From: Chloroflexota bacterium
Lineage (GTDB): Bacteria; Chloroflexota; Limnocylindria; Limnocylindrales; CSP1-4
Direction of reading: 5' to 3'
Length of the DNA: 8,433 nt
Assembly: GCA_021786915.1 (NCBI GenBank)
Contig: JAJYMP010000280.1
Coordinates: 1 to 8,433 of the forward strand
In this document: one piece after another, positions 3,459-8,433 of the stretch
Layout: each line of letters begins with the position of its first letter
How positions within the stretch are numbered: the first letter of the stretch is position 1
Program-made: the position numbers and the translations under genes
Notes under the pieces: model-generated
Seen by the model: only the letters and a program-made list of their open reading frames with translations
Database searches by the model: none
Told to the model about the DNA's origin: nothing

Positions 3459-3504
3459 GTCGGGCCGGCGCCGAGCGACCTCGGCCCGCCGGCCCAGTCA
3501 GAAG

Positions 3505-3666
3505 TGGCCGCCCATGCCATGGATCCGCGGGGGGTCGGTCGAGTCGTGGCACGCGATGCCACGAAGTGACGCGATCCGAACCGTCGGGCGGGTCGAACCG
3601 ATCGAATCACGGCACCGGAGGCCACGATTCGACGCCGAGAGCCGGAATCCATGGCATGCGGTGCCA
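3505..3666. repeat. Array of four phased palindromes, core TGGCA-N5-TGCCA
   Basis: Four 15-bp dyads occur in the gene-free divergent region. They are 3505-3519 (TGGCC-N5-TGCCA), 3547-3561 (TGGCA-N5-TGCCA), 3610-3624 (CGGCA-N5-GGCCA) and 3652-3666 (TGGCA-N5-TGCCA). All share an exact GGC-N7-GCC. Their centres (3512, 3554, 3617, 3659) are 42, 63 and 42 bp apart, all multiples of 21 bp, so they would sit on one face of the helix. The second is a perfect 8-bp-arm dyad (3544-3564). The third has extra outer arms TCGAATC/GATTCGA (3602-3608, 3626-3632). The outer pair form a 12-bp inverted repeat, CATGCCATGGAT at 3513-3524 and its complement at 3647-3658, so the block is symmetrical about 3585.5. 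It could be an operator array between the ligase-like and peptidase genes, or a dispersed intergenic palindromic repeat. Confidence 0.7.
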
Positions 3667-3672
3667 ATCGCG

Positions 3673-6063: not shown

Positions 6064-6072
6064 GTATCCTCC
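6064..6072 (+). other. Left target half-site and core at the IS110 left junction
   Basis: GTATCCTC at 6064-6071 is repeated exactly inside the first loop of the RNA at 6113-6120. This is the relation expected between the left target and the left target guide, the guide pairing with the bottom strand. The core dinucleotide is read as the final TC. Confidence 0.7.
6065..6070 (+). promoter_or_regulatory. Putative -10 box (TATCCT), apparently of the downstream C45 gene, separated by the IS110 insertion
   Basis: When the IS110 element is removed in silico (joining 6071 to 7344), TATCCT is followed by CCCATG and then GTG, so the transcript would start at or beside the C45 gene's first possible codons. 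This is the same geometry as the other leaderless-type starts in the window. In the present arrangement it points into the left end of the element and could drive the bridge RNA and recombinase instead. Both roles are inferred. Confidence 0.4.
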
Positions 6073-6247
6073 GGGTGAGTGTCACCCTCTCGGGTGTCCG
6101 GCGGCTTGGCTCGTATCCTCGCTGCCCGCCGACGGGTGTGGCCTTCATGGGATCTGCCGGCCGCCGGACATGGATCGGACCGACCGGTGTGACTTCATAG
6201 GAGCGTGGCAACCGCCCCCACTCAGGCGTGTCCACCGGCCGGTCCGG
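6073..6247 (+). ncRNA. IS110 bridge RNA (seekRNA)
   Basis: The RNA directs the recombinase to bring target and donor DNA together. Three structures are visible. A 5' hairpin pairs GGGTGA (6073-6078) with TCACCC (6082-6087). Stem-loop 1 pairs 6095-6105 with 6160-6170 (11 bp, plus G-U ends), then GGC (6108-6110) with GCC (6156-6158), and has an apical hairpin CCCG/CGGG (6125-6128, 6133-6136). Stem-loop 2 pairs 6175-6189 with 6233-6247 (14 of 15 positions, including one G-U) and has a small inner hairpin near 6207-6216. Loop 1 is the target loop. Its 5' strand carries GTATCCTC (6113-6120), equal to the left flank, and its 3' strand carries CATGGGAT (6146-6153), the reverse complement of the right flank at 7341-7348. 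Loop 2 is the donor loop. Its 5' strand carries CATAGGAGC (6196-6204), equal to the right end of the element at 7332-7340. Its 3' strand has CACTCA (6219-6224), complementary to TGAGTG at 6076-6081 in the left end; this last match is the weakest. Length and loop order agree with the IS621 bridge RNA. Transcript ends are estimates. Confidence 0.8.
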
Positions 6248-6281
6248 ATGTGTCACCCCTGATCAGGAGGCGACGGAAGGA

Positions 6282-7331
6282 ATGATCGTCATCGGCATCG
6301 ATTCCCACAAGCGCACCCACACCGCGGTCGCGGCCGACGGCAACGGTCGCAAGCTCGGCGAGGTCACGCTCGGCACGACGAGCGCGGGGCACCTCGAGCT
6401 CGTCCGCTGGGCGGCCCGGTTCCCCGGCCACCGGTTCGCGCTCGAGGACACCCGCCACCTGTCCCGCCGCCTGGCGGGCGACCTGCTGCGTGCGGGCGAG
6501 GCGGTCACCTGGGTGCCGACGAGGCTCATGGCCGGCGCCCGCCGGCATGGCCGCGAGCAGGGCAAGAGCGATCCGATCGACGCCCTGGCGGTCGCCCGCG
6601 CCGCGCTCGCGGACCCGGACCTCCCGACGGCCACCCTCGAGGGCGAGGAGCGCGAGCTGCGGCTCCTGGTCGACCACCGCGAGGACCTCGTCGCCGAGCG
6701 CACCCGGGCCCAGAACCGCCTGCGCTGGCACCTCCACGAGCTCGAACCCGGCAACGAGCCTGGGCCACGCTCCCTGGACCGGGCGGTCGTGCTGCGGGCC
6801 CTCGACGAGCGGCTCGAGACCGTCGAGGGCACCGTCGCCCGGATCGCCCGCGAGCTCGTCGGCCGGATCCGCGACCTGACCCGCACGATCGATGCCCTGG
6901 AGCGCGAGATCACCCGGCTGGTCCGCGAGGTCGCCCCGACCCTGCTCGCCCTGCCCGGCTGCGGCCCGCTCTCGGCCGGCAAGCTCGTCGGCCAGGTCGC
7001 CAAGGCCGGCCGCTTCCGCTCGGCCGCCGCCTTTGCCCGCCACAACGGCTCGGCACCGCTCCCGGTCTGGTCGGGCAACGACGAGCGCCACCGCCTGTCG
7101 CGCAAGGGCGACCGCCAGGTCAACGTCGCGCTCCACCGGATCGCCATCACCCAGATGCGGATCGACGAGCGAGGCCGGGCCTACTACGAGCACCGCCGGG
7201 CGGCAGGCGACACGAAGACCGAGGCGATCCGGGCGCTGAAGCGCCGGATCAGCGACGAGATCTACCGCCGGATGCGTCACGATGAGCGCCTCCGGGCGAC
7301 CCCGCGGGCAGCCCTCGCGGCGGCCGCTTGA
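6282..7331 (+). CDS. IS110-family DEDD recombinase (transposase)
   Basis: This 349-aa protein has the two IS110 domains. The N-terminal RuvC-like DEDD domain starts MIVIGIDSHK with Asp7, Glu55 (FALED), and Asp97 and Asp100 (KSDPID); the intervals (48, 42 and 3) match IS110 enzymes. A charged helical linker, probably coiled coil, runs about 120-220. The C-terminal Transposase_20 (IS116/IS110/IS902) domain begins with LPGCGPLSAGKL (224-235), and Ser264 in PVWSGN is the likely nucleophile, followed by HRLSRKGDRQVN. The ATG at 6282 is chosen because family N-termini begin here and AGGAGG (6265-6270) lies 11 nt upstream; the in-frame GTG at 6228 falls inside the RNA. The TGA stop is 10 bp from the element's right end. 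The enzyme acts with the upstream bridge RNA to excise a circle and insert it at a guide-matched site. Confidence 0.95.
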   Translation: MIVIGIDSHKRTHTAVAADGNGRKLGEVTLGTTSAGHLELVRWAARFPGHRFALEDTRHLSRRLAGDLLRAGEAVTWVPTRLMAGARRHGREQGKSDPIDALAVARAALADPDLPTATLEGEERELRLLVDHREDLVAERTRAQNRLRWHLHELEPGNEPGPRSLDRAVVLRALDERLETVEGTVARIARELVGRIRDLTRTIDALEREITRLVREVAPTLLALPGCGPLSAGKLVGQVAKAGRFRSAAAFARHNGSAPLPVWSGNDERHRLSRKGDRQVNVALHRIAITQMRIDERGRAYYEHRRAAGDTKTEAIRALKRRISDEIYRRMRHDERLRATPRAALAAAA

Positions 7332-7333
7332 CA
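7328..7333 (+). promoter_or_regulatory. TTGACA at the right end of IS110, possible outward or junction -35
   Basis: A consensus TTGACA overlaps the recombinase stop codon and points out of the element. IS110-family circles are known to form a promoter across the joined right and left ends, with the -35 in the right end. A clear -10 at 16-18 bp is not visible in either the present right flank or the predicted circle junction, so the role is tentative. Confidence 0.35.
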
Positions 7334-7348
7334 TAGGAGCATCCCATG
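7332..7348 (+). other. IS110 right end, core and right target half-site
   Basis: CATAGGAGC (7332-7340) is the donor sequence copied in loop 2 of the RNA. ATCCCATG (7341-7348) is complementary to the 3' strand of loop 1. The core TC is read at 7342-7343, where the element passes into the genomic right flank. Confidence 0.7.
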
Positions 7349-7352
7349 GTGC

Positions 7353-7392
7353 GTCCTGAAAGCTGGACCAGGCCAGCGGGTGTGAGTCCCGC
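7353..7392 (+). promoter_or_regulatory. Leader with two small hairpins before the C45 gene
   Basis: GTCC (7353-7356) pairs with GGAC (7365-7368), and GCGGG (7376-7380) pairs with CCCGC (7388-7392) across a 7-nt loop. Together they would structure the leader if translation starts at 7406. If translation starts at 7346 or 7349 the segment is coding. No known riboswitch was recognised. Confidence 0.25.
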
Positions 7393-7405
7393 CCAGGTAA
7401 GCGCG

Positions 7406-8433
7406 ATGACTCCTCGCCGTACTGATCTCGTGGACGGTGGCGGGCTCCCGCTCCTGCGCGTCGCCGGATCGCACCGGGAGGTCGGGCGCCAGCTGGGCGA
7501 GGCGACGGCGGACACCATCCGCGAGGCCGTGGACTTCGAGGGCCGGCTGCCCCCCGGCTGGACGCTCGACGCGCAGCTCGCCCTTGCCGCCGCCCACCGC
7601 GACGCCACCCTCCGCGCCACGCCCTGGCTGGTCGACGAGATCGACGGCGCTGCCGAGGGGGCCGGGGTGGATCCGCTCGCGCTGTTCGCCGCGTCGATCG
7701 AGGAGATCTGGGCGTCGCGGCCCTCGCGGGCAGGCCCGGGCGCCGGAGGCGTGCGGCCGTTCGGCCACGGGCGCTGCTCGGACCTGGTCGCCGTCCCGCC
7801 CGCCACCGCGGACGGTCACGTCTGGGTGGCCCACAACAACGACCTCTCGCCCTCGTCCGAGGCTGCGGCAGTCGCGGTCGAGTGGCGCGTGCCGGGCGAG
7901 CCGGTCGTGTTCTCGCTGGGGGTCGGCCCGTGGATCTCGGTGGGGTGGAACTCGGCCGGGCTCTCGCTGACCGGCAACGAGCTCTCGCCCAACGACGACC
8001 GGGTGGGGGTGCCGCGCCTGCTGATGGTTCGTGAGCAGTTGACCGCGAGGACGCTCGACGAGGCGGTCGGGATGGCGCTCCGCCCTGACCGGGCGTCCTC
8101 GTACAACACCGTGTTCGCGCACAGCGACGGGCGCGTCGTGAATGTGGAGGGCTCTGCGACCGACGCCGAGCTCACGGTCCCGGGCGCCGCGGGGACGCTC
8201 GCCCACACGAACCACTACACCTGCGAGCGGATGCTGCGCTACGAGGCCGATCCGGCGTACGCACGCAAGTCGGGAGTCCGCCTGGCCCGTGCGCTCGAGC
8301 TGCTCGACGGGCCGGCCGCCGAGGGCCCCGCACCCGGGGCCATCACGGGCGACACGCTCTACGCCGCCCTCTCCGACCACGCGACCACGCCCTCGATCTG
8401 CCGCCACGATGACGGCGTCGAGACCTCGGTGAC
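7406..8433 (+). CDS. Peptidase C45 / acyl-CoA:6-APA acyltransferase-like Ntn-hydrolase, C-terminus cut by window edge
   Basis: 342 codons are visible before the window ends. The family (isopenicillin-N acyltransferase-like, C45) comprises self-processing N-terminal nucleophile hydrolases that cut or transfer amide-linked acyl groups. Visible hallmarks are GSHREVGRQLGE (21-32), Cys124 in GRCSDL as the predicted nucleophile freed by autocleavage, AHNNDLSP (142-149), AHTNHYTCERM (266-276) and SDHATTPSICRH (323-334). No signal peptide is seen. The start is uncertain. ATG 7406 is listed because AGG lies about 8 nt upstream, but the same frame is open back to ATG 7346 and GTG 7349, and the ancestral promoter would place transcription start there. 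Those first codons have unusually A/T-rich third positions, which argues against their being translated. The IS110 insertion lies directly upstream and appears to have removed the original promoter. Substrate unknown; homologues often act on small amides. Confidence 0.88.
   Translation, partial: MTPRRTDLVDGGGLPLLRVAGSHREVGRQLGEATADTIREAVDFEGRLPPGWTLDAQLALAAAHRDATLRATPWLVDEIDGAAEGAGVDPLALFAASIEEIWASRPSRAGPGAGGVRPFGHGRCSDLVAVPPATADGHVWVAHNNDLSPSSEAAAVAVEWRVPGEPVVFSLGVGPWISVGWNSAGLSLTGNELSPNDDRVGVPRLLMVREQLTARTLDEAVGMALRPDRASSYNTVFAHSDGRVVNVEGSATDAELTVPGAAGTLAHTNHYTCERMLRYEADPAYARKSGVRLARALELLDGPAAEGPAPGAITGDTLYAALSDHATTPSICRHDDGVETSV

Follow-up and report, generated by a model that had tools for sequence, protein, structure and literature searches.

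The IS621/IS110 bridge recombinases combine DEDD and Tnp domains with a non-coding left end, two guide loops of a characteristic geometry, a promoter formed at the circle junction and handshake pairing (PMC11208160, PMC11208158), the handshake guides of IS621 pairing with donor positions 6-7 after strand exchange (PMC11208158). Targets named there include REP elements, and IS621 has a CT core in both donor and target (PMC11208160, PMC11208158). ISEc21 is likewise an IS110-type element with an upstream non-coding RNA (seekRNA) and no duplication on insertion, and its target is a coding motif of the transposases of IS3-family elements (PMC11187229). A related element was analysed in a window of 8,433 nucleotides, the term window referring throughout to this whole stretch of DNA. 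The domains, the two-loop left end with its guide geometry, the circle-junction promoter (by sequence) and handshake pairing all have counterparts here, and the element shares with ISEc21 its type, its upstream RNA and, as predicted, insertion without duplication. In contrast to REP elements or a transposase coding motif, however, the sites at which it and its relatives are found are predicted to be leaderless promoters with their start codons. At the position of the IS621 core, the inferred circle joins C to T, with boundaries uncertain by 1-2 nt, and the target bases vary (G and C in the window). Judged from sequence, it is highly probable that an IS110-group element lies here between a -10-like box and a start codon, that its bridge RNA guides it to leaderless promoters, and that it would borrow the promoter of the host gene and likely supply that gene with a Shine-Dalgarno sequence.

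The 349-aa reading frame matched the NCBIfam model NF033542 (IS110 family RNA-guided transposase) with 180.8 bits, above the cut-off of 140, contained Pfam domains PF01548 and PF02371 (DEDD_Tnp_IS110 and Transposase_20) and aligned with IS621 (8wt6) at an E-value of 2e-6. GIDSHK (residue 5), ALEDTR (53), KSDPIDA (95) and RLSRKG (271) lie opposite the DEDD-residue and serine stretches of IS621, the serine correspondence being our own reading of the alignment. A weak match to the TIGR-Tas endonuclease model NF052498 (36.8 bits) fell below its cut-off of 100. The arrangement of the IS1111 group, with the bridge RNA in a long right end, was not found; the RNA is in the left end and the right end extends 12 nt beyond the stop codon. 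Among 7999 scored candidates, 7932 reached E<=0.001. No relative was found on viral contigs, and the best plasmid matches were less than 60% identical. In six plasmid regions inspected (L305-L310), the next annotated same-strand gene was a transposase in two (L305, L310) and a same-strand host gene directly followed the element in none; only L310 had the right-end pattern described below, and it is included in the count of 73 right ends.

Table 1. Positions of the element, its predicted bridge RNA and the surrounding host signals in the window.
Feature	Position	Strand	Basis or remark
Host -10-like box TATCCT (TANNNT), part of left target	6065..6070	+	Same box at empty site L262
Host bases between -10 box and element, 5 nt	6071..6075	+	With 7344-7345, give spacing 7 to start codon
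IS110-group element	6076..7343	+	Boundaries inferred, +/- 1-2 nt
Right donor, left element end TGAGTG	6076..6081	+	Complementary to 6219-6224; cis/trans test
CACCCT (CANNNT), predicted -10 of circle-junction promoter	6083..6088	+	TTGACA-17 nt-CANNNT
Bridge RNA target-binding stem-loop, predicted	6096..6169	+	Consensus fold with covariation
Left target guide GTATCCTCGC	6113..6122	+	First eight bases equal left flank 6064-6071; cis/trans test
Right target guide	6146..6153	+	6146-6150 complementary to CCATG 7344-7348; 6151 complementary to C7343
Right guide handshake positions	6152-6153	+	Complementary to element end A7341 T7342
Bridge RNA donor-binding stem-loop, predicted	6177..6245	+	Consensus fold
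Left donor guide CATAGGAGC	6196..6204	+	Equals 7332-7340; AGGAGC invariant in 16 aligned sequences
Right donor guide CACTCA	6219..6224	+	Reverse complement of 6076-6081; cis/trans test
IS110 recombinase, 349 aa and stop	6282..7331	+	Pfam, NCBIfam NF033542, alignment with IS621 8wt6
TTGACATAGGAG	7328..7339	+	tnp stop codon 7329-7331, -35-like TTGACA, most of left donor, Shine-Dalgarno-like AGGAG 7335-7339
Right target CC and host-gene start codon ATG (7346-7348)	7344..7348	+	Counterpart of the ATG at empty site L262

To examine the non-coding left end, those of 16 relatives, the window included, were aligned from 6077 onwards. The consensus comprised two stem-loops with 40 pairs, of which 18 had changes on both sides; 96.9% of the cells were paired, against 33-45% for slid partners, and these measures were reached by none of 500 shuffles. 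With a covariance model built from the same 16 left ends, the window among them, the RNA was detected at E<=0.001 in two classes, in 35 of 177 genomes of one and 18 of 110 of the other; searching Rfam at gathering thresholds across the window gave no match. The element's left end likely encodes a two-loop bridge RNA. The initial annotation had drawn two long loops behind a 5′ hairpin and proposed folding with a covariance model from IS110 left ends; a stable two-loop fold is indeed present in the alignment, and the loops are conserved with covariation. The hairpin (GGGTGA..TCACCC) was not confirmed, consensus columns 1-22 being unpaired in an alignment that starts at 6077, inside its inner TGA/TCA pairs, and its outer three bases (6073-6075) come from the host. 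That the locus is an IS110-group element with a bridge RNA is strongly supported by the NF033542 and Pfam assignments, the conserved fold and the tracking of flanks by loop 1.

Three correspondences between the RNA and the element's junctions had been reported for the window, and their letters were read back as stated. Positions 6064-6071 and 6113-6120, the latter in the 5′ strand of loop 1, are both GTATCCTC; the reverse complement of 6146-6153 is 7341-7348 (ATCCCATG); and 6196-6204 in loop 2 equals the element's right end at 7332-7340 (CATAGGAGC). A fourth guide, absent from the initial annotation, lies at 6219-6224, where CACTCA is the reverse complement of the left end TGAGTG (6076-6081). 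The element most likely starts at T6076, the left host flank reaching 6075. The earlier reading of 7341-7348 as flank throughout was rejected, since CATC is constant in eight copies in genome G109 whereas the next two bases vary; CATC (7340-7343) most likely belongs to the element, the 8-mer thus starts with the element's own last bases, and the target is 7344-7348 (CCATG). A two-base target duplication was also rejected, by eye on the paired ends of the window, L004, L016, L043 and L045.

Read as host signals, the left guide amounts to a -10 box (TANNNT) and the right guide to a start codon. A TANNNT box some 12 bp upstream of the start is the mark of leaderless genes (PMC3160421). TANNNT was present in the left guide in 41 of 54 rows (24 of 36 distinct guides) and in the left flank in 41 of 54. 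Among 73 distinct right ends with the pattern TTGACA[TC][AG]GGAG, ATG or GTG stood at offset 6 after GGAG in 38, with 0-6 occurrences at each other offset from 0 to 49. The frame was open for at least 90 codons in 33 of these 38 ends versus 10 of the 35 others, and GC was highest at the third codon position in 34/38 versus 10/35. A fresh search of 394 genomes from the class of G009 (Tsukamurella), which we take to be Actinomycetes, yielded 25 right ends in 13 genomes, a reversed control pattern giving no match; ATG or GTG occupied offset 6 in 18 of the 24 new ends and any other offset up to 29 at most once. The offset-6 start codon was absent from 35/73 ends of the first set and 6/24 of the second, and near misses were seen at offset 5 (L134) and 7 (L034, L330).

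Removal of the element (T...C) yields TANNNT-N6/7-start codon in 27 of 27 elements read at both ends by script, a set defined by a TANNNT guide and a left hexamer with at most one mismatch from it, with left spacings of 3-7 tested, and reconstructed without L011, L063 and L328, which were not captured. The spacing, made up of the left remainder and two right bases, was N6 in 18 and N7 in 9. In sequence, leaderless promoters show just this pattern. It is seen directly at an orthologous site that is empty (L262), flanked as in the window by the end of an S9 peptidase gene and by the AAT gene and reading GCGCGTATCCTCGCGCCCATGG uninterrupted. The window has GCGCGGTATCCTCCGGG before the element and CCATGG after it, a spacing of 7 as in L262, and all ten bases of the left guide are present at the empty site. 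Such empty sites come from related species rather than the same strain. With the flank of L209 as the query, alignment to the 11 relatives inspected was confined to the upstream gene, and L221 (G078) has TACGATCC without a start codon at the expected place and so gives no support.

In G109, eight left and eight right ends were located at contig ends, left and right not being paired up. All eight left flanks read TAGG[CA]T and all eight right flanks CATC-NN-[AG]TG, with the start codon at offset 6. Downstream genes were scanned for seven of these right ends and represented six Pfam families (CorA, phosphotransferase, FAD-binding, 3HCDH_N, enoyl-CoA hydratase and alpha/beta hydrolase) and one gene without a family. 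The 3HCDH gene was targeted in both G109 and G007. In a sample of 30 loci from a longer list of matches, 18 of the 29 other 3HCDH orthologues showed TANNNT-N6..9-start by eye, 17 of them with spacing 6-7; the remaining 11 were without the leaderless pattern, several having a purine-rich, Shine-Dalgarno-like run instead. Upstream of the 3HCDH gene, L250 (G001) carries AGGAGCATCCGATG without an element, identical to the right end plus start codon and possibly an excision scar or a chance Shine-Dalgarno sequence. Directly behind the start codon in the window lies a group II intron-like 5′ fragment (7349-7479, with GTGCG at 7349), which matched RF02003 at 7374-7479 with an E-value of 0.0013 and 23.1 bits, below the gathering threshold of 49. 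L262 is without these extra bases and the AAT frame is open through the fragment in the window; given its place after the ATG, translation may now begin at the ATG at 7421.

IS900, reportedly treated by Doran et al. in 1997, is also a member of the IS110 family. The target motif of this actinobacterial element is CATGNNNNNNTCTCCTT, which reads as a translation-initiation signal (PMC8141618), and it is the nearest precedent for a family member aiming at initiation signals. By our own reading, the motif on the other strand is a Shine-Dalgarno sequence followed by a start codon, so that IS900 would split the two, whereas here it is a -10 box that is separated from a leaderless start, and a Shine-Dalgarno-like run arrives with the element. 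The IS900-type target was not found at this locus, where the left target is TANNNT. Within the titles and opening lines of abstracts in open-access PMC, no paper described leaderless promoters among the targets of IS110. While bridge and seek RNAs have been described before, what is new is the target class, a leaderless promoter with its start codon, which had also gone unseen in the initial annotation.

The element's ends suggest how such a site could be used. Across the circle, TTGACA-17-CANNNT was present in 13 of 14 circles with a script-readable right end, using inferred boundaries and 18 listed elements, and L071 had one extra base. In the proposed mechanism, loop 1 would pair with the target TATCCTC and CCATG and loop 2 with both ends of the element itself; circle and target would then be joined by the recombinase with no bases duplicated. 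The predicted junction of the circle is GGAGCATCTGAGTG, whose promoter (TTGACA-17-CANNNT) would make the RNA. After integration, the host -10 box at 6065-6070 would start transcription at the left end of the element, near 6077, so that the host promoter would drive both bridge RNA and recombinase, and read-through would reach the host gene, whose leaderless start would be lost. Counted back from the ATG at 7346, AGGAG (7335-7339) is 6 nt away and the stop codon of tnp 14 nt away, an arrangement in which AGGAG would serve as a Shine-Dalgarno sequence; the element likely supplies the host gene with one. With the promoter borrowed and a Shine-Dalgarno sequence supplied, insertion would be nearly harmless to the split gene.

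Relatives whose targets are not start codons (L005, L006 and L047) have AGGAG as well, suggesting that it is kept as donor sequence and that its Shine-Dalgarno role may be a by-product. The targeting could therefore be real and the gift accidental, with AGGAG serving as left donor only and the guides having drifted to a frequent motif, a serious possibility that we place somewhat short of even and that the invariance of AGGAGC in the donor guide also favors. Against it, 56 of 97 right ends are cut at one constant distance from the start codon, leaving a usable Shine-Dalgarno spacing, and this offset is kept, along with a TANNNT guide, even in L063 and L065, whose recombinases are only 32-33% identical. 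Evenly balanced, in our estimate, is the broader reading in which a widespread bridge-RNA lineage carries a copy of a leaderless promoter (-10 box and start codon) as its guide, inserts itself between promoter and gene, makes the host gene second in the element's own operon and gives it a Shine-Dalgarno sequence from 12 bases in which the tnp stop codon, a -35 box, the donor site and a ribosome-binding site coincide, acting as an RNA-programmed, self-neutralising promoter parasite. If so, leaderless genes would be converted into Shine-Dalgarno-led ones. On the main reading, the bridge RNAs of a large, mostly uncultured lineage would aim at a generic host signal rather than at a repeat or transposon, one guide thereby offering many safe harbours per genome. 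The pattern points to recombinases with the target rule TANNNT-N4/5 before the cut and N2-RTG after it in high-GC bacteria.

Insertion in genes is generally costly, and wide insertion followed by survival of only those copies between promoter and start codon would place elements at such sites by selection, not guidance. This explanation is very improbable, since TANNNT and the start codon are written in the guide itself, and since guide class goes with site class, non-TANNNT guides being mostly elsewhere: a start codon was present at the site for 13 of 14 elements with a TANNNT guide, versus 1 of 10 with other guides (Fisher 7e-5; of the 13 rows, L108, L292 and L293 are copies of one element). 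The exceptions were L011, with a TANNNT guide and no start codon, and L097, with another guide and a start codon. We predict instead that the bridge RNA guides the element to leaderless-gene promoters.

Guides and flanks vary together among relatives. Left guides matched their own flank at 7.02 of 8 positions and the flanks of others at 4.93 (54 rows, for which 56 were reduced to 49 by dropping the chance regex matches L036, L041, L057, L260 and L290, the stray L205 and a second left-end start of L044, and five, L019, L021, L047, L048 and L098, were entered by hand). For the 36 distinct left guides the means were 7.08/8 in cis and 4.86 in trans, and for 21 right guides, six of them read manually where the regex missed the register, 6.8 and 4.15; each difference was reached in none of 20,000 permutations. 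In 19 of 22 elements, the last two element bases ahead of the junction are complementary to the 3′ end of the right guide (permuted mean 7.3, 0/10,000 permutations; misses L021, L048 and L310), with a small bias towards agreement because both handshake bases are among the eight used to choose the guide shift. Right donor guides covaried modestly with the left end: in 41 elements the longest match was 6.4 in cis and 5.6 in trans (2/20,000 permutations), and 26 distinct guides gave 21/20,000. By eye, this longest match was at the left end in 25 of the 41 elements, with CTTTAT in L047 and CCCAGTG in L098 as examples, and elsewhere in the remainder. The left donor guide is nearly invariant and so provides no covariation evidence. 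Covariation of loop 1 with flanks in homologues, proposed earlier as a check, was thus found for left and right guides, that of loop 2 with element ends for the right donor guide only, the left being too constant. Natural covariation is thereby added for three of four guides and for handshake pairing, and it is stronger proof than shuffling. When the non-coding left end (6077-6272) was dinucleotide-shuffled 2000 times, 177 shuffles equalled the left match, 109 the right and 10 the donor match, and none equalled all three together; either target match alone is unremarkable but the conjunction of three is not, as the initial annotation had supposed. A chance origin, or one from ordinary repeats within a GC-rich non-coding end, might be argued from single 8-mer target matches in 5-9% of shuffles, but is refuted, and left with a negligible probability, by the joint result and the cis/trans covariation.

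Some relatives have other guides. In L005/L019, L047, L310 and L033 the guide is TTTCTTCG or similar and the site lies in a CTTTCTTCG motif, which resembles the orfA/orfB region of IS3 elements, and in L310 the element is followed by a gene for an IS3 transposase. These members look like natural retargeting to another transposon. Like ISEc21, L005/L019 and L310 seem to target IS3-family elements, at another site (PMC11187229). A second target class is formed by L049, L051, L052, L097 and L155, with a guide family around CACTATGAC and left flanks CACGATGAC; the right ends of L049 and L051 have AATTGATAG in common. On the reverse complement of L044, at about 1260-1333, the left end contains a 37-bp tandem duplication that takes in the TGAGTGTCA end together with the 5′ half of stem 1. 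In the window itself, a cluster of palindromic GTGGCAC..GTGCCAC-like words lies between divergent reading frames at 3500-3670.
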